Shown here: piece by piece, positions 38,983 through 53,126 of the stretch
How positions within the stretch are numbered: the first letter of the stretch is position 1
Layout of the letters: every line of letters begins with the position of its first letter
Assembly: GCA_027013225.1 (NCBI GenBank)
Contig: JALUXU010000057.1
Coordinates: forward strand, 62,001-126,000
Source of the DNA: Acidihalobacter sp.
Lineage (GTDB): Bacteria; Pseudomonadota; Gammaproteobacteria; DSM-5130; Acidihalobacteraceae
Direction: 5' to 3'
DNA: 64,000 nt
The notes under the pieces: model-generated
What the model was told of the DNA's origin: nothing
Database searches by the model: none
What the model saw: the letters and a program-made list of their open reading frames with translations, nothing else
Made by a program: the position numbers and the translations under genes

Positions 38983-39664
<682 letters not shown>

Positions 39665-39962: not shown

Positions 39963-40778
39963 TCATCGCTGACAGCGGGGGCAGAAGTAGCTGCTGCGTT
40001 GGCCGATGAAGGCATGCTCGATCGGCGTTTTGCAGCGCGGACAATTTTCGCCCCGTCGCCCATACACTTGGAGTTCCATCTGGAAATAACCGGGTGTGCC
40101 GTCTTCTTTGAGAAAATCGCGTAAGCTCGTTCCCCCTTTGGCAATGGCATGGCGCAACACACTTCTGGACGCATCGGCCAGAGCCGCATAGCGCGCCTTG
40201 CTGATGCGCCCCGCCGCGCGCGCGGGATGAATTCCTGCCGCATGGAGCGCCTCGTTCGCATAGATGTTGCCTAGCCCTACCACAACTCGGCTGTTCATGA
40301 TGAAGGCCTTTACCGGCAAGCGCCGTTTGTGTGCGAGTTTATACAGATAGTCGCCAACGAAGCTGTCGCTGAAAGGTTCTGGTCCCAGTTTCGCGAGTAG
40401 GGGATGCCGCGCCGGGTCTTCATCTGTCCATAGCAGAGCGCCGAAGCGTCGGGGATCGCGCAATCGCAGCAGCATTTCGTTGGCCAGAACGATGTCTACA
40501 TGGTCGTGAGGTTTCGCTGGCGTATCATCAGGCAAAATGCGCAGGCTGCCGGACATGCCCAAATGCAAGATCGCAGTGCCGTTTCCGGTCTTCAGGAGCA
40601 GGTATTTCCCGCGGCGATTCACGGCCAGGATATGTTGCCCCGTGAGCGCGTCTTCGATGGCCTCGGGAATGTGCCAACGCAAACGGCGCTCGCGAACGAT
40701 CACTTGCGCGATGCGCTGCTCGAGCAGATGGGGTTCGATGCCCTTGCGAGTGGTCTCAACTTCGGGAAGTTCTGGCAT
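39963..40778 (-). CDS. mutM: Formamidopyrimidine-DNA glycosylase
   Basis: MutM removes 8-oxoguanine and cuts the abasic site. The mature protein must begin with Pro-Glu, and the ATG at 40778 gives MPELPEVETTRKGIEPHLL, so it is chosen over the earlier ATG at 40802. Other motifs are NRRGKYLLL (catalytic Lys), HLGMSGSLR, GLGNIYANEALHAAGIHP, KGGTSLRDFL, QVYGRRGENC and the C-terminal zinc finger CPRC...CPRC. 271 residues, normal length. Confidence 0.96.
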   Translation of the reverse strand: MPELPEVETTRKGIEPHLLEQRIAQVIVRERRLRWHIPEAIEDALTGQHILAVNRRGKYLLLKTGNGTAILHLGMSGSLRILPDDTPAKPHDHVDIVLANEMLLRLRDPRRFGALLWTDEDPARHPLLAKLGPEPFSDSFVGDYLYKLAHKRRLPVKAFIMNSRVVVGLGNIYANEALHAAGIHPARAAGRISKARYAALADASRSVLRHAIAKGGTSLRDFLKEDGTPGYFQMELQVYGRRGENCPRCKTPIEHAFIGQRSSYFCPRCQR

Positions 40779-40798
40779 CGGCTTCGCCCAAAAGGGGA

Positions 40799-41965
40799 TC
40801 AATCGTGGCCGAACAGGTCTCTACTGTAAACCTTGTCGATGACGTCGCGGATTTCGTCCGTGACGCGGTTGGCGACAATGATATCCGATTGCGCCTTGAA
40901 TTCATCGAGATCATTGATTACCGGCGATCGATAGAATTCCTTTTCATTGAGAACCGGCTCATAGACGATCACTGGAATACCTTTTGCCTTAATGCGTTTC
41001 ATGATGCCCTGAATGCTCGAAGCGCGGAAATTATCGGAGCCGGCTTTCATGATCAGGCGATAGATGCCCACCACGTCCGGATCGCGCCGCACGATTTCGT
41101 CGGCGATGAAATCCTTGCGGGTGGTGTTGGCATCGACGATGGCCTTGATCAGGTTCTGGGGCACTTTGTCGTAGTTTGCCAGCAGCTGCTTGGTGTCTTT
41201 GGGCAAGCAATAACCGCCATAACCGAACGAAGGATTGTTGTAATGCGAGCCGACCCGCGGATCGAGAGAGACACCTTCGATAATCTGGCGGCTGTCCAGA
41301 CCATGGCGGGCCGCGTATGTGTCAAGTTCATTGAAATAAGCCACGCGCATGGCGAGAAAGGTGTTGGCGAACAGTTTGATCGCCTCGGCTTCTGTCGAAT
41401 CGGTGAACAATACGGGGATATCTTTTTTCAGTGCTCCCTGCACGAGCAACTCGGCGAATCGTTGCGCGCGGGCGGACCGTTCGCCGACGACGATTCGGGA
41501 GGGATGAAGGTTATCGTGTAAAGCGCGTCCTTCGCGCAAGAATTCGGGCGAAAAGAAAATGTTGTCGTGGCCGAATTTGGAGCGAATCTGCTTGGTGTAT
41601 CCCACCGGCACTGTCGATTTGATGACCATGGTTGCGTGGGGATTGATGTGGATGACATCCCGTATCACGGCCTCCACGGAGGAAGTGTTGAAGCTGTTGG
41701 TTTCAGGATCGTAATCAGTGGGCGTGGCGACAACCACATATTCGGCCTCTGCATAGGCCTGTGCCGGATCGAGAGTTGCTTTGAGCGTTAGAGGTTTGTG
41801 CGCTAGATAGTCTTCGATTTCCGGGTCCGCGATGGGAGAAAGACGCGCATTCAGCATCTCGATTTTCTTCGCATCGATGTCCAGGGCGGTGACGGAATGA
41901 TGTTGAGCCAATAGCACGGCGATGGATAAGCCGACGTAGCCGGTACCTGCGATGGCGATGTTCAT
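40799..41965 (-). CDS. ugd: UDP-glucose 6-dehydrogenase
   Basis: Ugd oxidises UDP-glucose twice to UDP-glucuronate for polysaccharide or lipid A modification. The 388 residues equal the E. coli enzyme. Motifs are [19 protein letters not shown] (NAD site), [48 protein letters not shown] and the catalytic Cys in [14 protein letters not shown]. It is a stand-alone gene; mutM lies 20 bases downstream on the same strand. No glycosyltransferase locus is nearby. Confidence 0.95.
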
Positions 41966-42009
41966 GTCAGGGTGTTAATCCTTTGTGTTTTAGCATCCGC
42001 TGGATGCGC

Positions 42010-42285
42010 TCAGTTCGTCACCGGGGTGGAGGACAAGGGTTGAGGCGGCGGCAGGGGTTGAGAGTAGTTGCCATCAGTGCCGGTTGATGCGCGTGTCTGG
42101 CTGTTTGCTGCTGCCTTGCCCGGATCACTTTTCGATTTGACGATAGGCGAGCGGAACGTGTAGCCGTGCTTGGCCAGTTCATAACCGGTGACGCCACCGA
42201 TGGCCGCACCCGCAACTACGGCGGCGCAGCCGCCCAATTGAGCAAGCAAGAAAAACCCGACAAGAACTCTGAATATGTTTTTCAT
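42010..42285 (-). CDS. Small lipoprotein with glycine-zipper-like segment, copy A
   Basis: This 91-residue protein has a lipoprotein signal peptide ending in the lipobox LGGC (Cys20). A short Gly/Ala repeat AAVVAGAAIGGVTGYELAKHGY follows, then a Ser/Pro/Gln-rich tail. The Gly-rich segment resembles glycine-zipper outer-membrane lipoproteins but is very short. It is a paralogue of the next gene upstream, from which it is 42 bases apart. Function unknown. Confidence 0.72.
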   Translation of the reverse strand: MKNIFRVLVGFFLLAQLGGCAAVVAGAAIGGVTGYELAKHGYTFRSPIVKSKSDPGKAAANSQTRASTGTDGNYSQPLPPPQPLSSTPVTN

Positions 42286-42327
42286 CGAGTGTCCTCCTGT
42301 GAGAGTGACGTTACAAATGAGTTGAGG

Positions 42328-42510
42328 TCATTGGGTCCGCGGGTTTGCAGGATCGGATTTCTTGGCGATCGGGGATTGCACGGTGTAGCCATGCTTGGCG
42401 GCTTCGTAGCCCGCAACGCCGCCTGCGGCGGCGCCAACGACCAGAGCCGCACATCCGCTCAATTGAGACGTCAAAGCGAATCCGAGCGCGATCCAAAGCG
42501 TTTTTTTCAT
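42328..42510 (-). CDS. Small lipoprotein with glycine-zipper-like segment, copy B
   Basis: This 60-residue protein has a signal peptide with lipobox LSGC (Cys20), then AALVVGAAAGGVAGYEAAKHGYTVQSP, nearly the same as copy A. The ATG at 42510 is chosen because it gives MKKTLWIALGFALTSQ, a good signal peptide; the frame is open upstream without one. The two genes look like a tandem duplication in which the tails diverged. Function unknown. Confidence 0.72.
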   Translation of the reverse strand: MKKTLWIALGFALTSQLSGCAALVVGAAAGGVAGYEAAKHGYTVQSPIAKKSDPANPRTQ

Positions 42511-42651
42511 TTGTGTCACCCTAAAGTCCAATGCGATGAAGCAGCGATTAAATCTCTGTGTCCTTGCCAACGCGCATCGAGAGGAATCCACCGCCCATGC
42601 TGATTTATGCGCAGTTTACCACCGCCAGAAGGTCGGCGAGCACAAAGCGGT

Positions 42652-43536
42652 TCAATCGGGCGAGGGCGCGCTTCGTTTCGACTCGGCGAAGACCCAGGCG
42701 ATCCGCAAGCCGGCGGTAAAGTCCTGTCGTGTCCTGACCAGCGGCGAGGCGGTGAAGGCCGCGTTTTGCAGTGAGGTGTAGCTGATATAGGCACCGAGGC
42801 GCAGCCGGCCCATGGCGCGCCCCGCGCCGAGATAGACTGCCGTGCCCGCGTAACCTGCGGGCGCTTGGTAAGCGGGCCGGTTGGCTCCCGCATACGCTTT
42901 GGCCACGCCATAATAATATTGATTGTAGCGATGATCGGCGAAGTTTGGCCCTGCGGCCATTGACAGGTTCCAGCCGCTATCTCGCCAGTTTTTTATCTTC
43001 AGCGTCAGATAAGGCGAAGCGACCCAGCCAATGGATCGGAAATGAATAGTTTGCGCGCTACGCACCGCCAGATGGAGATCGAGCTTTAGCCGCTGATCAG
43101 CGTAAAGATGGATTTTTATCTGCGGGCCGATCTGGAAGACAGGTTCGAGATTGGGCATGCCCGAGCGCGCCGGCGAATCATGGCTGTTGACGGGAGGGGC
43201 GGCGCTGGCGCTGACATCGAACTGAACGCGGGGGGTGCTGACAAATATTCCGCTTATGCCGGTGCGGGTGGTGCGTAGTTTGCGCCCGCGATAGACGATG
43301 TAAGGGTAGGGAAGCAGATAGCTCAGATAGGTTTTCGCGCCGGGATAGGCGGGGAGTGATACCAGGAAAAGGCCGGCTCCGAGTTCCCAAAGCGGCAGTT
43401 TTCCCGTGGCGCGTGCCGGTTGGGAAGGCGGGGCGAGGCTCATGGCGGCTATGATCAAGGCTGTGATGGCCAGGTGCCGACCGGCCGTCCTATGCGATCC
43501 ACTATTGGTCATTGTCGGCGGCCATGATCGGCTCAT
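42652..43536 (-). CDS. MipA/OmpV-family outer membrane protein
   Basis: This beta-barrel protein resembles MipA/OmpV: KLPLWELGAGLFLVSLPAYPG, then YLLPYPYIVYRGRKLRTTRTGISG, a middle LEPVFQIGPQIKIHLYAD, and a C-terminal strand ending GLRIAWVFAESK. The frame is open to 43680, but the ATG at 43536 overlaps the stop of the chorismatase gene (ATGA). It gives a signal peptide (ALIIAAMSLAPPSQPARA) after a slightly long N-terminus; an ATG at 43512 would give a more ordinary one. The family includes scaffolding proteins for peptidoglycan synthesis and outer-membrane pores. It ends a six-gene operon. Confidence 0.78.
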   Translation of the reverse strand: MSRSWPPTMTNSGSHRTAGRHLAITALIIAAMSLAPPSQPARATGKLPLWELGAGLFLVSLPAYPGAKTYLSYLLPYPYIVYRGRKLRTTRTGISGIFVSTPRVQFDVSASAAPPVNSHDSPARSGMPNLEPVFQIGPQIKIHLYADQRLKLDLHLAVRSAQTIHFRSIGWVASPYLTLKIKNWRDSGWNLSMAAGPNFADHRYNQYYYGVAKAYAGANRPAYQAPAGYAGTAVYLGAGRAMGRLRLGAYISYTSLQNAAFTASPLVRTRQDFTAGLRIAWVFAESKRSAPSPD

Positions 43537-44543
43537 CCGCTGTCCTTGGCGCGGCCTAGATACATCCCTTCTATTTCGAGCAGCAGGTCTTCGCGGCAAA
43601 CCGTCCCTTGCAGGAACAGACGCGCTGGTTTGGAGCCGGGAAAGCGGCTTTGCAGCGCGCTTTTTACTTGCGGCAGCCATTGCGGATGGCTGAGGTAAAT
43701 CTTGATGAGGTCGAGTTGGGCGAAGTGGCTGATCGGCAAGGCGTGGCGATGATGAGCAGTTGAGATCAATGCTTCTATGTTGGATAGCGTCTCTTCGAGC
43801 TGGGGAAGCGGTTCTCGATGACGGCTTTCGTGCCCTACGATGCTGGCGGTACCGGAGATATACAGGTGCTCGCTTTCCGGCCAGTGTTTGAACAAGGCGC
43901 GCGAAAAAGCCGGACTGCGGGGGCTGTAACGTGGCGGATAGTTGAATGCGCTGACCTGGCGGGGGTTTTCTATTTGGATTCCGGGCGATTTTGCGGCGAG
44001 AAAATAGAACTGAAAGGGGCCGGGGAATGAACCGAGGGCGCTGGCGGCCGGCAGCGACTGGGGCGGTATGGCGAGCGGCGCCAGCGTTTCATGGCGGCCG
44101 ACGCAAAAAGCCCGATAACGTTGCTCTGCGCCATCTGTTTCAAGAAGCCGGGGGAAGTAGTTCCATACCCTCAGAAGATGCGGATAGCCCGTTTTTTCCA
44201 GCAGGCGATACAGCCGCGCATAGGCGGCACGCGCATCATGGCGCATGTCATCGGCCGGCTGTTCCAGATAGGCGAAAAGCACATCCGGCGTGCGGGCGAC
44301 GTGAATGCCGTCGATCTGTTCATGCGTTACCGGCGAGGCGGCTTTCCAGTATTCGAGCTGTCTGGTTTCTTCCAGCTGGGGTAGCGCGAGCGTGAACTCG
44401 CAGGCATCGCCCGCCGGTCCGCGCGCCGATTCATCGAAGCCGATCAGTGCCAGGGTTTGGTTGTCGGCAAGCAATTCCTGCTTGTGGCGGGCATCGACGT
44501 ATGCGACGGTGAAAGGGCGGCTTGACGGTTTAATCGGGAGCAT
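43533..44543 (-). CDS. Chorismatase-like protein (FkbO/Hyg5/XanB2 type)
   Basis: This 336-residue protein matches the chorismatase family, which splits chorismate to pyruvate and hydroxy- or dihydroxybenzoates. Motifs are RVWNYFPRLLE near residue 126, YRAFCVGRHETL, LPAASALGSFPGPFQFYFLAAK, SAFNYPPRYSPRSPAFSRA, LYISGTASIVGHESRH and LETLSNIEALI-type helices near the C-terminus. The FkbO subfamily makes a dihydro-dihydroxybenzoate, Hyg5 makes 3-hydroxybenzoate, and XanB2 makes 3- and 4-hydroxybenzoate. Which product forms here cannot be read safely. It follows DUF4340 by 34 bases and overlaps the OmpV-like gene. It may supply 4-hydroxybenzoate for ubiquinone or a precursor for an envelope pigment. 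Confidence 0.78.
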   Translation of the reverse strand: MLPIKPSSRPFTVAYVDARHKQELLADNQTLALIGFDESARGPAGDACEFTLALPQLEETRQLEYWKAASPVTHEQIDGIHVARTPDVLFAYLEQPADDMRHDARAAYARLYRLLEKTGYPHLLRVWNYFPRLLETDGAEQRYRAFCVGRHETLAPLAIPPQSLPAASALGSFPGPFQFYFLAAKSPGIQIENPRQVSAFNYPPRYSPRSPAFSRALFKHWPESEHLYISGTASIVGHESRHREPLPQLEETLSNIEALISTAHHRHALPISHFAQLDLIKIYLSHPQWLPQVKSALQSRFPGSKPARLFLQGTVCREDLLLEIEGMYLGRAKDSG

Positions 44544-44577
44544 GAGGGTCGATCATTGCTTGGATCTGATTATTTTC

Positions 44578-45468
44578 TCATGAGCGTTCCGAAAAACCCA
44601 CCTTGCCCGCCGTTTCCGGCGCGGGGCGAAGGATTATCGCCGCGGTGATCCCCGGCGGCAGCCAGTAATCCGCGCTGAGTTGTGTATTTCGCAGAATCAA
44701 AGAAGGTTTGACCGCAACGATCTGGTAAAGCACCGTTCTGCCGTTGGCGAGCGTGATCCGGATCTCAGGCTTTTTCTTGCCCGTTGAGCGGGAGGCCGGG
44801 GTCACTCTCAGCGCCTTGGCCTGGCGCCAAAACGCCAGCCATTTATCGATGGCGGAAGGTGAGACTCGCCCGGAATGGCCCGCTGCTTCCCAGCGCCCCG
44901 AAGCCTTGCGTTGCAAACGGATGCCGGGTGTTTCAATGGCAACGATGCGGGCGCCAGGAGGCAACAAAGCGTGGCTAACCCAGGCCAGAGCGGGGCTGTG
45001 CGGAAGATCTGCGAGGCGATCAGGAATAAGATAGAGCTTGCCGGCGTAGAGAACGTAGCGACGCTGGATCAGGGAATTGATAGCCCCGAGCGTAATGGCC
45101 GTGCGTCCGTAAAGGATGACCGCCCGCGATGGTTGCAATCCGAATCGAGGCAGCGCCGATTTTTCAATGGCATAGGCGCGGTCGCTGCGCGCTTGTGGAA
45201 CGCTGAGCAAGGTTTTTATGAGCAATGGATTGGCTGGCGCGCGAAGCGGTTGGGTCAGCCGCCAATGGCCATGCTGGCGTTTGAATACCAGCGTGGGATG
45301 AGAAGGGCGCTCGATGCGGATGACTCTGACCGTATCCTCATGAATGGCGGGGGCGAGGACGACGCCAGGTGGAGCAGGCGCTTTGGGTTTCGGCATGAAA
45401 ATGAAAACGATCAGGCCGATGAGACAAAAAAGCAGAACCAGATTGAGCAACAGGCGGCGCTTGAGCAT
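44578..45468 (-). CDS. DUF4340-domain protein of Gld-type ABC system
   Basis: This 296-residue protein has one N-terminal membrane helix (LLLNLVLLFCLIGLIVFIFM) and a large outside domain: VRVIRIERPSHPTLVFKRQHGHWRLTQP, LPRFGLQPSRAVI and LADLPHSPALAW. This matches DUF4340, which is almost always next to GldG-like and ABC genes, as here. The ATG at 45468 follows the gldG-like stop by eight bases. Its role is unknown; it probably acts on the periplasmic side with the GldG-like protein. Confidence 0.8.
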   Translation of the reverse strand: MLKRRLLLNLVLLFCLIGLIVFIFMPKPKAPAPPGVVLAPAIHEDTVRVIRIERPSHPTLVFKRQHGHWRLTQPLRAPANPLLIKTLLSVPQARSDRAYAIEKSALPRFGLQPSRAVILYGRTAITLGAINSLIQRRYVLYAGKLYLIPDRLADLPHSPALAWVSHALLPPGARIVAIETPGIRLQRKASGRWEAAGHSGRVSPSAIDKWLAFWRQAKALRVTPASRSTGKKKPEIRITLANGRTVLYQIVAVKPSLILRNTQLSADYWLPPGITAAIILRPAPETAGKVGFSERS

Positions 45469-45476
45469 GGAGAACT

Positions 45477-46847
45477 TCAGCGGGCGGGACGCCGCCGGCG
45501 CCACCAGATCAAGCCGCCGCCAAGCAGCAGGATCGATGGCAAGCCCAGCAAGAAGAAGATGGCCAGGGCATAGGCCTGCAGGCGGGTCAACTGCAAGCGG
45601 GTATCCGGAGCGGACGGCAAGTGAATCTGGATCAGACTGTCATCGTGCGCCAGCCAGTTCAAAGAGGCGATCGCCAGGTCGAGATTGGCGCCCTGGCCAA
45701 TGAAAGCGTTACTGAGAAAAGCACCGCTGCCGATTACCACGGCGCGGGCCTGTTTGCCGGCGTTTACGCCGGTGTGCGCGAGAGCCTCTCCAATAATCAG
45801 AGGGCCGAGTGTGTCGCCGCGTTTCGGATCAAAGCGGATCTCGCCTTTGAGCGGCGCGTTGGCGCTGAAACTTTGGGGCAAGGTACGCAGCAGCGGCGTG
45901 GCTTTCCAGCAGCGATTGCCGGCCGGTTGGGCGATGGCCGCGCTGAACGGGAATAAAGTCTGGATCTTGAGGGTTTGGGTGATCGGCGAGGGGCCATAGT
46001 TCAGCACCGGCACCACCGCCGGCGAATTCATGCCGAGCAAATTTTGCAGGCTGGCGTCGGCATTGACCACCGTGCCCGGCAGAAAGCGGATGCCAAGCAG
46101 GCGCGCCAGCGGCGAGAGGCCATGCAGCGACCCGGGCGCGTGCAGCCACAACAGCGAGCCTCCGGCGTCCAGATAGCGCTGGATGAGGGCGGTCTCGCCC
46201 GCGGTAAACGGCCTTCGCGGTTGCGCGATGACCACAACCGCCGTGTTCTCAGGAATCTGCGGGATGCGCAGCAGGTTGAGGGTTTGTAGATGCAGTCCCG
46301 CCTGTTCGAGCGCAGCGGCAAAACGGCTGAGTCCCGCGCTGCTGGTATCGAACGGAGAGCGTTCGTCCTGGCCTGAGAGAAATACGACCCATTGCTCGGC
46401 GCCCCGCGTCAACCGCATCAGGGCATTGAGGATGACTGCCTGGCCAAGCGAATCGACCACTTGGTGACGGTCGCCGAGGACGATCGCCATTTGCCCGCTG
46501 TGGGTGACGCCATAGCGATTGGCGCTTGCTGGATGCAGGCCGGGGTTGATGAAGCGCAGGCGGATTTTGGGATCGACCGCGCGATAGAGGCCGATCTGGC
46601 GGCGGATGCGGCGGTGCAGGTTTGCGTTGTCGCTGACAAAAGCGATGAACTTGAACGGTTCGGGGTTGGCGCGCAGAAATTGGGCCGTCACCGGGGCGAG
46701 GCTATAGCGGTGGTTCGCGGTCCAGTCCTCGGTGACGGCGTAACGATTGCTCAGCCAGGCCAGAATTCCCACGAGAGAGAGGAACAGGACCAGGGTGAGC
46801 AATGAATTGAGTCGCAGCTGCCAGCGGATGGAGGGTGAGACGTGCAT
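45477..46847 (-). CDS. GldG-like ABC transporter auxiliary protein
   Basis: This 456-residue protein has one N-terminal helix (LLTLVLFLSLVGILAWLSNR), a large periplasmic domain and one C-terminal helix (YALAIFFLLGLPSILLLGGG) followed by Arg-rich residues. Periplasmic motifs are YAVTEDWTANHRYSLAPVT and VVFLSGQDERSPFDTS. AVVVIAQPRRPFTAGETALIQRYLDAGGSLLWL (cited as a region near residue 205) looks like the GATase-like fold of the GldG/ABC-2 auxiliary family. It works with the adjoining permease and ATPase. The substrate is unknown outside the gliding machinery of Bacteroidetes. Confidence 0.85.
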   Translation of the reverse strand: MHVSPSIRWQLRLNSLLTLVLFLSLVGILAWLSNRYAVTEDWTANHRYSLAPVTAQFLRANPEPFKFIAFVSDNANLHRRIRRQIGLYRAVDPKIRLRFINPGLHPASANRYGVTHSGQMAIVLGDRHQVVDSLGQAVILNALMRLTRGAEQWVVFLSGQDERSPFDTSSAGLSRFAAALEQAGLHLQTLNLLRIPQIPENTAVVVIAQPRRPFTAGETALIQRYLDAGGSLLWLHAPGSLHGLSPLARLLGIRFLPGTVVNADASLQNLLGMNSPAVVPVLNYGPSPITQTLKIQTLFPFSAAIAQPAGNRCWKATPLLRTLPQSFSANAPLKGEIRFDPKRGDTLGPLIIGEALAHTGVNAGKQARAVVIGSGAFLSNAFIGQGANLDLAIASLNWLAHDDSLIQIHLPSAPDTRLQLTRLQAYALAIFFLLGLPSILLLGGGLIWWRRRRPAR

Positions 46848-46854
46848 GCGTTGC

Positions 46855-47610
46855 TCAGCGGGGAAGGCGTTGATTGTCGAGTTGACGAATGGTAAGCCCC
46901 AGGAAAGTCAGCGCGAAGAGTAGATAATAGGCCAGCGCGCGAGTGGAAAATTCCCCCCGCAAAAACGGCAGATAATGGCTGAAATGGGAAATGTAGACGA
47001 ACAGCTGGCTCTGTGTTCCCTGGGCGGTGCCGGCGACATAGAAGACGAACAGCAGGAGTAGAAAGCCAAAACCGCCGACGGCCGCCAGGGCGGGCTGGCG
47101 GGTGAGACTGGAGATATACAATCCGGCGGCGGCGAAGGAAGCGGTCAACAGGAAAAGACCCAATATTTGCGCTTGGAGATGGCCCCAGTCGAGCGACGTG
47201 CCGAGGCTGAGGGAGAGCGGCATGAGCGTGATCATGGCGATCATGACGGATAGGAAAGCCACCAGCCCGAAGTACTTGCCCAGCACGATCTCGCTGACGG
47301 AAAGCGGCGCGGCGATCAGCAGGGCCATGCTGCCGGTCTGGTATTCCTCGCTGAAGCCGCGCATGGTCAAAATCGGTGTAATTCCCAGCATGATCACGCC
47401 TGCCCACAGGAAGAACGGCGTCAGCACGAGGCTGACGACGCCGGGCGCATTCGCCATTCCCGCCAGCTTCGGCATGACGTTATCGATGTAGTTTTGCACG
47501 GCGGTAAGAAACAAAAAGGCGAGTATCAGCTGAACGAGGGCGAGAATCGACCAGGCCAACGGCGAATAGAACAAACGCCGCAGCTCATGGCGGGCGATGA
47601 CCAAAATCAT
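46855..47610 (-). CDS. ABC transporter permease, GldF/ABC-2 type
   Basis: This 251-residue protein has six membrane helices. It begins MILVIARHELRRLFYSPLAW, with a typical ABC-2 amphipathic start, then FFLWAGVIMLGITPILTMRG and the conserved EEYQTGSMALLIAAPLSVSEIVLGKYFG. The ATG at 47610 overlaps the ATPase stop (ATGA); the frame extends upstream in the wrong context. With the ATPase, GldG-like and DUF4340 proteins it forms one export machine. Confidence 0.88.
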   Translation of the reverse strand: MILVIARHELRRLFYSPLAWSILALVQLILAFLFLTAVQNYIDNVMPKLAGMANAPGVVSLVLTPFFLWAGVIMLGITPILTMRGFSEEYQTGSMALLIAAPLSVSEIVLGKYFGLVAFLSVMIAMITLMPLSLSLGTSLDWGHLQAQILGLFLLTASFAAAGLYISSLTRQPALAAVGGFGFLLLLFVFYVAGTAQGTQSQLFVYISHFSHYLPFLRGEFSTRALAYYLLFALTFLGLTIRQLDNQRLPR

Positions 47611-48548
47611 GCCGTGGCCTCCTCTTGACCGTCGGCGTGCAGAACGCGAAGAAAAATCTGTTCCAGGGAATCCTGCTGAAGGCATAACTCCCTTAGTTTC
47701 CAGCCGTTCATGCAGGCGGCCTGCACCAGCGCATCGGCGCTGCCGGCATCAGTTTTGGCCTGCAACAAAAATCGGCCCTCCCCAAGCGATCGAACGCCCG
47801 AGATTCCGGCCACGCGGCCCAGGGTGTGGGCGTCGGGCGGATTGGAGAAAGTGACGCGCCAGGTGTTGGCAAAAGCGGCGAGGCGGGCCAGCGAGTCGCT
47901 GTAAACCGGACGGCCGCGATCGAGAATGCATACGCGATCGCAGACGGTTTGCACCTCAGCCAAAATATGAGTGGAAAGAATCACGGCGTGCTCGTTTCGC
48001 AATTCGCTGATCAGCGCGCGTATCTCTTTTATCTGCAAGGGATCGAGTCCCACCGTGGGCTCATCGAGAATGATCAGCGGCGGTTGATGGATAAGCGCCT
48101 GAGCGATGCCCACGCGTTGGCGAAAGCCCTTGGAAAGAGTGCCGATGAGGGCGCGGCCGGCCTTGTCCAGGGCCGTGCGCTGTTTGGCGCGTTTCATGGC
48201 CTCGGGCACTTCGGCGCGGCGCAGGCCATGGAGGCGGGCGCAATAGCGCAAGTACTCGTCGATGCTCAGGTCGTCGTAGAGCGGCGGATTCTCGGGCAGA
48301 TAACCGAGCCGCTGCTTGGCCTGCAGAGGGCGTTCCAGCAGATCAATGCCGTCGATTTCGACGCGCCCGCCGCTGGGCGCGAGGCCGCCGCTGAGCAGAT
48401 TCAGAGTGGTGGTCTTTCCGGCGCCATTGGGGCCGAGCAAGCCAAGCACCTCGCCGACATTCAATCGCAGGGAAAAAGCCTCGATGGCGCGGTGGCGCCC
48501 ATAGTAACGGGACAGGTTCTCGGCAAGCAAAAGGGGCGCTGCGCTCAT
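47607..48548 (-). CDS. ABC transporter ATP-binding protein, GldA type
   Basis: This 313-residue ATPase has Walker A GPNGAGKTTTLN, a Q-loop in LGYLPENPPLY, signature LSKGFRQRVGIAQALIHQPP (FRQR variant), Walker B LIILDEPTVGLDP, and a switch His in VILSTHILAEVQTVC. The C-terminal domain of about 90 residues is typical of ABC-2 exporters. It is the first gene of the minus-strand operon that continues through permease, GldG-like, DUF4340, chorismatase and OmpV-like genes. Confidence 0.92.
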   Translation of the reverse strand: MSAAPLLLAENLSRYYGRHRAIEAFSLRLNVGEVLGLLGPNGAGKTTTLNLLSGGLAPSGGRVEIDGIDLLERPLQAKQRLGYLPENPPLYDDLSIDEYLRYCARLHGLRRAEVPEAMKRAKQRTALDKAGRALIGTLSKGFRQRVGIAQALIHQPPLIILDEPTVGLDPLQIKEIRALISELRNEHAVILSTHILAEVQTVCDRVCILDRGRPVYSDSLARLAAFANTWRVTFSNPPDAHTLGRVAGISGVRSLGEGRFLLQAKTDAGSADALVQAACMNGWKLRELCLQQDSLEQIFLRVLHADGQEEATA

Positions 48549-48781
48549 GTGGACTCGGAATGTTCAAAAGGGGCCGATCGCGCCGCCGCGTGGACAGACG
48601 GGCGCGTCAGGGATTATATTCGCAAATGCGCCTGGAAATGCATCTGCCCCATCAATCCGCCGCATCAGGGAAAATCCGCGGCGGCGAAGGAATGGGCGGC
48701 GGCGTGTTTCCATGCGCATGGATGGCGGTTTTCGCCATGAATCTAGAGTTTGGTTGCAACACTGTAGGTAATAAATTGAGT

Positions 48782-49975
48782 ATGTCCTGGTTTTACGGTT
48801 TTATCACTCTCCCCTGGTGGGGCTATCTTCTGGTCGCGCTGGCCTTGACCCATGTCACCATCGTCAGCGTGACGCTGTTTCTGCATCGTTCGCAGGCGCA
48901 TCGCGCCTTGGACATGCATCCTGCGCTCGCCCATTTCTTCCGCTTCTGGTTGTGGCTCACGACCAGCATGATCACACGGGAATGGGTGGCGGTGCACCGC
49001 AAGCATCACGCCAAATGCGAAACCCCCGACGATCCCCACAGCCCGTACCACAAGGGTATCGGCAAGGTGCTGCTCGAAGGCGCCGAACTCTATGGGGAGG
49101 AAGCATCGAAACAGGAAACCCTGGAAAAGTATGGCCGCGGCACGCCCGACGACTGGCTGGAGCGGCATCTTTATACGCGCCGCCATATGCTCGGAATCGT
49201 GCTCATGGCGGTCATCGATCTGCTCCTGTTCGGCGTTGTCGGCATCGTCATCTGGGCGGTGCAAATGATCTGGATCCCCTTCTGGGCGGCGGGCGTCATC
49301 AACGGCCTGGGGCATTGGTGGGGATACCGCAACTATGAAACCGAGGACGGATCGACCAATCTGTCGCCCGTCGGCATTCTCATCGGTGGCGAGGAGCTGC
49401 ACAACAATCATCACGCCTTTCCGGGTTCGGCCCGCTTTTCGCTCAAGCCGTGGGAATTCGACATCGGCTGGATGTATTTGAGCGTCCTGCGCCGCTTGGG
49501 GCTGGTGAGGATCAAGAAAGTGGCGCCGAAGGTGATCGTCGATCCGGACAAGAAAGGCATCGACCTGGAAACCGCGAGGGCCGTCGTCATCGCCCATCTG
49601 GATCTGAGCGCGCGTTATGCGCGCGAGGTCATGCTGCCCGTGCTGCGGCAGGAATTTGCCCGCGCCGACGCGTCCTGCCGCGCATTGCTCAAACGAGGGC
49701 GGCGGGTGCTGATGCGCGATGAAAGCCGCCTGGATGAGCGCGGTCGCAGCCGTCTCGCCATGACTCTGCAGGCCAGCGAAACGCTCAGGACCGTTTACGA
49801 GTACCGGCGGCGGCTGCGGGCGCTGTGGTCGTCCCGCACCCAGGGCACCGAGGCATTGCTGGCATCGATTCAGCAATGGTGCGCCGAGGCCGAAGCCAGT
49901 GGCATCCAGGCGCTGCAGGAGTTCGCGCGCGTGTTGCGCGGCTATTCGCTCAGGCCGGCAAGCAGCGTATCCTGA
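48782..49975 (+). CDS. Membrane fatty-acid desaturase
   Basis: This 397-residue acyl-CoA/acyl-lipid desaturase uses a di-iron site to put a double bond in fatty acids. The three His boxes are HRSQAHRAL, HRKHHAKCE and HNNHHAF, with membrane helices between them (LLVALALTHVTIVSV, IDLLLFGVVGIVIW). The C-terminal about 115 residues are soluble, helical and Arg-rich. The ATG at 48782 gives MSWFYGFITLPWWGYL, a likely start; an ATG at 48737 in frame is possible. It is divergent from the ABC operon. Unsaturation control would help membrane adaptation to temperature or acid. Confidence 0.92.
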   Translation: MSWFYGFITLPWWGYLLVALALTHVTIVSVTLFLHRSQAHRALDMHPALAHFFRFWLWLTTSMITREWVAVHRKHHAKCETPDDPHSPYHKGIGKVLLEGAELYGEEASKQETLEKYGRGTPDDWLERHLYTRRHMLGIVLMAVIDLLLFGVVGIVIWAVQMIWIPFWAAGVINGLGHWWGYRNYETEDGSTNLSPVGILIGGEELHNNHHAFPGSARFSLKPWEFDIGWMYLSVLRRLGLVRIKKVAPKVIVDPDKKGIDLETARAVVIAHLDLSARYAREVMLPVLRQEFARADASCRALLKRGRRVLMRDESRLDERGRSRLAMTLQASETLRTVYEYRRRLRALWSSRTQGTEALLASIQQWCAEAEASGIQALQEFARVLRGYSLRPASSVS

Positions 49976-53052: not shown

Positions 53053-53126
53053 TGGCTGGGGAACCAGGATTCGAACCTGGATTAACGGAGTCAGAGTCCG
53101 CTGTCCTGCCGTTAGACGATTCCCCA
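53053..53126 (-). tRNA. tRNA-Gln (CTG)
   Basis: On the minus strand the 74-base cloverleaf starts TGGGGAATCG, with the D-loop TCTAACGGCAGGA and anticodon stem CGGA/TCCG around CTCTGAC. The anticodon CTG is the complement of 53092-53094. The T-loop is GTTCGAATC and CCA is encoded. It resembles E. coli tRNA-Gln. Confidence 0.95.

Follow-up and report, generated by a model that had tools for sequence, protein, structure and literature searches.

In Xanthomonas, the chorismatase XanB2 provides 4-hydroxybenzoate (4-HBA) for ubiquinone (PMC5069965; PMC3949708). In the arcuflavin cluster of Azoarcus, arcA encodes a halogenase, arcB a chorismatase of the XanB2 type and arcC an MltA-interacting outer-membrane protein, and ArcB forms both 3-hydroxybenzoate (3-HBA) and 4-HBA (PMC3949708). 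We analysed a 64,000-nucleotide stretch of DNA from Acidihalobacter sp. (contig JALUXU010000057.1, positions 62,001 to 126,000; the window), in which a chorismatase gene of this family follows the genes of a Gld-type ATP-binding cassette (ABC) transporter and precedes a gene for a MipA/OmpV-family outer-membrane protein. Judged from sequence comparison, the gene probably encodes a XanB2-type enzyme that was kept to supply 4-HBA for ubiquinone and is co-transcribed with a transporter to which it is functionally unrelated.

The window chorismatase showed homology to its family that included the FkbO/Hyg5-like N-terminal domain (PF21168, 115 bits against a cut-off of 27), and it matched the PDB structures of FkbO (4bps, E = 8e-43) and Hyg5 (5ag3, E = 2e-42). 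Its TIGR04444 score of 206 bits fell under that model's own cut-off of 325, and in a quick tree with long branches it clustered with its own family with a support of 97-98. Residue E323 is the equivalent of Hyg5 Glu334, for which a catalytic role has been reported (PMC7170507), and was kept in 106/106 alignment rows; G231 and C316 were likewise invariant. The CH-II (Hyg5) subfamily is marked by a Gly/Gly/Cys signature (Nat-hyg5 Gly164, Gly231 and Cys318; PMC7170507), which the window enzyme, with Ala169, Gly231 and Cys316, does not carry in full. The Ala/Gly/Cys pattern is common to 11/15 Xanthomonadaceae homologues, and the window protein has both the Gly and the Cys that occur in types forming 3-HBA/4-HBA but are absent from FkbO. 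A search for viral relatives of the chorismatase found none.

No UbiC chorismate lyase (PF04345) was found in the window's genome, which is 99.97% complete, and the E. coli positive control was detected. UbiA was present above its cut-off and a single chorismatase is encoded, so that the chorismatase is likely the only source of the ubiquinone precursor in this genome and may well be essential. The genome check for ubiC proposed by the first-pass annotation of this DNA thus favours the second of its two suggestions, namely that the enzyme feeds ubiquinone and has no relation to the transporter. The same combination recurred in the nine genomes in which a chorismatase adjoins Gld genes: UbiC was found in none of them and UbiA in 6/6 of those tested, as well as in 142/144 relatives in a first sample composed mostly of one genome per family of the class. 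Four of the other linked genomes (G048, G066, G130 and G131) also lacked the aryl-polyene markers PF13723 and PF19574, and ubiquinone is therefore the obvious use of the enzyme there too.

Chorismatase was found in 27 of these 144 relatives and in 73 of the 370 genomes of a wider class sample (GldG-like proteins in 79 and 216, respectively). Co-occurrence was counted by hand from the result tables, the species are not independent, and absence calls depend on the sensitivity of the hidden Markov models. UbiC was missing from 52 of the 73 chorismatase genomes versus 85 of the 297 without chorismatase (Fisher p = 4e-11, uncorrected for kinship), showing that the two enzymes tend to be mutually exclusive across the class. 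The UbiC-less, chorismatase-free genomes may also point to a further source of 4-HBA, given that UbiA is nearly universal. In two genomes without chorismatase or UbiC (G018 and G065; L176:10192-11016 and L184:11255-12046), MipA lies between DUF4340 and mutM; we looked in this gap for a hidden 4-HBA enzyme and found only MipA, plus, in one of them, a small protein with a resemblance to GlcG/DUF336 as judged by eye.

The origin of the chorismatase-MipA pair is indicated by its relatives. Most other chorismatase loci have aryl-polyene genes around them (acyltransferase, MMPL, AMP ligase, halogenase-like flavoprotein, glycosyltransferase, ketosynthase and reductase), and MipA adjoins the chorismatase in about 19 of 105 loci. 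At the equivalent position of the same-genus genome G001 (locus L031), the Gld operon and DUF4340 are followed by a halogenase-like gene, chorismatase, MipA, an open reading frame (ORF) of 101 aa, a LipA-type acyltransferase, LolA_3, MMPL, two ketosynthases and ugd. In the window, MipA is instead followed by two small glycine-zipper genes and then ugd, and the ketosynthase, LolA-like and MMPL genes are not found beside chorismatase and MipA. PF13723 and PF19574 were absent from the window's whole genome and present in G001-G004, and the genome measures 2.27 Mb vs 3.4 Mb in G001. Since the cluster also occurs in G002-G004, we infer loss here rather than gain in G001, with ugd as the far boundary of the lost segment, and the pair is best read as an arcB-arcC remnant. 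A tblastn search of the window with the L031 pigment proteins gave no convincing remnant. The two tandem glycine-zipper lipoprotein genes are similar to each other and occupy the site of the aryl-polyene genes of G001. For the outer-membrane protein, an envelope connection does stand, through the aryl-polyene cluster, as arcC, and not through the ABC transporter as first proposed.

We then compared the position of the chorismatase across genomes. Contig positions and locus maps placed it next to Gld genes in nine of the 73 chorismatase genomes (G000, G001, G048, G066, G130, G131, G188, G196 and G349), which span five families (f1, f45, f63, f127 and f128); the linkage is neither restricted to one strain nor general. 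For comparison, 20 Gld loci without a linked chorismatase were mapped. In nine of them (L172, L175, L177-L180, L182, L183 and L185) mutM comes directly after DUF4340, and in some others it comes after a short insert; a divergent desA flanks about half of these loci and all of the Gld-linked ones. The ancestral block is therefore desA | gldA-gldF-gldG-DUF4340-mutM, often with coaD beyond, and the chorismatase lies within the Gld operon because it occupies the DUF4340-mutM gap of this block. Seven of the nine linked genomes have it immediately before mutM, and it also occurs beside mutM in many genomes that have no Gld operon close by, e.g. Ectothiorhodospira and Thioalkalivibrio. In the sister genus g2 (G002-G004) the block is broken: the chorismatase lies with mutM, MipA and pigment genes (L032-L034), while the Gld operon and desA lie together at another location (L166-L168). 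Thus, the anchor of the chorismatase is the DNA-repair gene mutM, not the transporter. The block itself appears as a conserved housekeeping unit in many families of the class, mostly chorismatase-free (window 39963-49975; L166-L188), and its constant desA and mutM neighbours might hint at the function of the ABC module. The literature on DUF4340 and on Gld-type ABC systems outside gliding bacteria yielded no function.

These comparisons bear on the suggestion of the first-pass annotation that the Gld-type module exports a hydroxybenzoate-derived product or puts it to use in the envelope, with MipA as the outer-membrane component. The tight gene packing in the window agrees with such a role, as does the adjacency seen in nine genomes from five families, five of these genomes having the chorismatase directly after GldG. 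Nevertheless, GldG is not enriched with chorismatase (49/73 vs 167/297, p = 0.11), 24 of the 73 chorismatase genomes have no GldG, the operon leads straight to mutM where no chorismatase is linked, the two modules lie apart in the sister genus, and pigment clusters bring their own MMPL and LolA export genes. With no co-occurrence and the same block found chorismatase-free, we rejected this role for the transporter and regard it as very improbable. We give hardly any credence to the broader form, in which Gld and chorismatase are functionally coupled in all five families and handle a hydroxybenzoate or a derived envelope compound, together with MipA in this genus, so that the position at mutM would be more than inherited synteny. 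The annotation would have abandoned export had the linkage been limited to one strain, or had the enzyme served only ubiquinone in a UbiC-less genome with the ABC set transcribed separately: the linkage proved wider, the ubiquinone part holds in spirit, and separate transcription is not expected, as the genes are probably co-transcribed. Alternatively, the enzyme could mainly make 3-HBA, either to act as a diffusible factor or to enter an aryl polyene with genes that escaped detection; ubiquinone would then be a secondary use or be supplied otherwise. Both 3-HBA and 4-HBA are formed by XanB2 and ArcB, and the 3-HBA from XanB2 serves as a diffusible factor (PMC3949708); moreover, MipA, an aryl-polyene cluster gene, was kept, and the assembly is in 73 contigs. 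We consider this unlikely in view of the two markers missing here and present in G001-G004, the lack of L031 pigment-protein remnants in the window and the absence of UbiC as another source of 4-HBA.

Several observations weigh against retention for ubiquinone. At residue 169 the window enzyme has Ala in place of the Gly shared by Hyg5 and FkbO, and the product of a chorismatase is not deducible from sequence (PMC3949708). UbiC coexists with chorismatase in 21 of 73 genomes, and the 85 of 297 genomes without either enzyme mean that other 4-HBA sources exist. The quick tree, with its long branches, gave no single origin of the Gld-linked chorismatases, which we rejected as at least two changes are needed. 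In families f45 and f63 the chorismatase directly follows GldG, with no recognised DUF4340, as tightly as a functional partner would, and supply for ubiquinone leaves the retention of MipA without its pigment genes unexplained. At the loci of these two families (L047, L052, L186, L187 and L188), the chorismatase looks to have replaced DUF4340.

Supply of 4-HBA for ubiquinone nevertheless remains the reading we prefer, and the following course is proposed. The chorismatase would have arrived near mutM within a xanthomonadin/arcuflavin-type aryl-polyene cluster comprising halogenase-like arcA, chorismatase arcB, MipA arcC, an acyltransferase, LolA, an MMPL exporter and ketosynthases. The pigment genes would then have been lost in the window's genome, leaving the chorismatase and its MipA partner, and the chorismatase would have been retained as a replacement for UbiC because the latter is absent. 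The enzyme would convert chorismate into 4-HBA and pyruvate, probably with some 3-HBA, and 4-HBA would pass through UbiA to ubiquinone. The locus thus offers a candidate answer to how UbiC-less Gammaproteobacteria obtain 4-HBA, and a case of a pigment-pathway enzyme apparently retained for core metabolism after loss of the pigment genes. As the tight packing with the transporter genes is explained by the conserved block, the chorismatase gives no clue to the transporter's substrate.

Table. Genes of the chorismatase locus and its flanks in the window
Feature	Coordinates	Strand	Basis
ABC ATPase, GldA-like	47607..48548	-	PF00005 103 bits; best NCBIfam model TIGR03522 GldA 266 bits
ABC-2 permease, GldF-like	46855..47610	-	PF12679 52 bits; TIGR03518 GldF 85 bits
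GldG-like periplasmic/transmembrane auxiliary protein (ABC_transp_aux)	45477..46847	-	PF09822 76 bits
DUF4340 protein, final gene of ABC module	44578..45468	-	PF14238 27.5 bits vs cut-off 25
Chorismatase, FkbO/Hyg5/XanB2 family, arcB/xanB2 homologue	43533..44543	-	PF21168, TIGR04444, PDB 4bps/5ag3
MipA/OmpV family outer-membrane protein, arcC homologue	42652..43536	-	PF06629 126 bits
Two tandem small glycine-zipper lipoprotein genes	42010..42510 (about 42328-42510 and 42010-42285)	-	no Pfam hit
ugd (UDP-glucose 6-dehydrogenase)	40799..41965	-	PRK15057 659 bits
mutM	39963..40778	-	homologous to PF01149/PF06831 protein of L042
desA-family desaturase, divergent from Gld module	48737..49975	+	NF049918 604 bits vs cut-off 400

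The first-pass description of six genes on one strand coupled by overlaps or short gaps was confirmed by the ORFs, profile matches and junctions, in the order ATPase, permease, GldG-like, DUF4340, chorismatase and MipA. The permease ATG lies over the ATPase stop in an ATGA-type overlap, and gaps of 7, 8 and 34 nt separate the permease from the GldG-like gene, the latter from DUF4340 and DUF4340 from the chorismatase. The 8 nt hold for the ATG start of DUF4340, for which an alternative GTG start at 45504 is possible. Chorismatase stop and MipA start also form an ATGA overlap, given a MipA start at 43536, which is more likely than the listed ORF start at 43680, located within the chorismatase. 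The chorismatase and the ABC genes probably share one transcript, and the gene order is more than chance, as it is kept in other families. Promoter and terminator scans stayed at chance level. All Gld models scored far under their NCBIfam equivalog cut-offs (GldA 266/402.6, GldF 84.6/288.5 and GldG 36.3/389.85 bits), and the label "Gld-type" denotes a distant similarity only, as judged from these profiles.

Elsewhere in the window, tRNA-Phe(gaa) (38983-39058, +) and tRNA-Gln(ctg) (53053-53126, -) were identified, and the ORFs across both are not genes. Among the database loci, L119 is a chorismatase locus of the Stenotrophomonas type found in a record titled Bacillus subtilis SK7B5, which probably reflects contamination or mislabelling.

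Compared with known systems, the window chorismatase belongs to the same protein family as XanB2 of Xanthomonas, a bifunctional enzyme that yields 3-HBA and 4-HBA and feeds xanthomonadin and ubiquinone. It resembles XanB2 in the E323, Gly231 and Cys316 signature, in its UbiC-less genome and in a presumed link from shikimate to ubiquinone; unlike xanB2, its gene has a Gld-type ABC operon on one side and mutM on the other, in a genome where no xanthomonadin genes were found. With arcA-arcB-arcC of Azoarcus sp. BH72 it shares the chorismatase-MipA order, and the same-genus relative has the full halogenase-chorismatase-MipA series, whereas neither arcA nor any other pigment gene occurs in the window. 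The transporter genes keep the ATPase, ABC-2 permease and ABC_transp_aux order of GldA-GldF-GldG in gliding Bacteroidota, but differ in their sub-threshold equivalog scores, the extra DUF4340 and the anchoring by desA and mutM. With the UbiC chorismate lyase the chorismatase would share the role of turning chorismate into 4-HBA, although it comes from an unrelated protein family.

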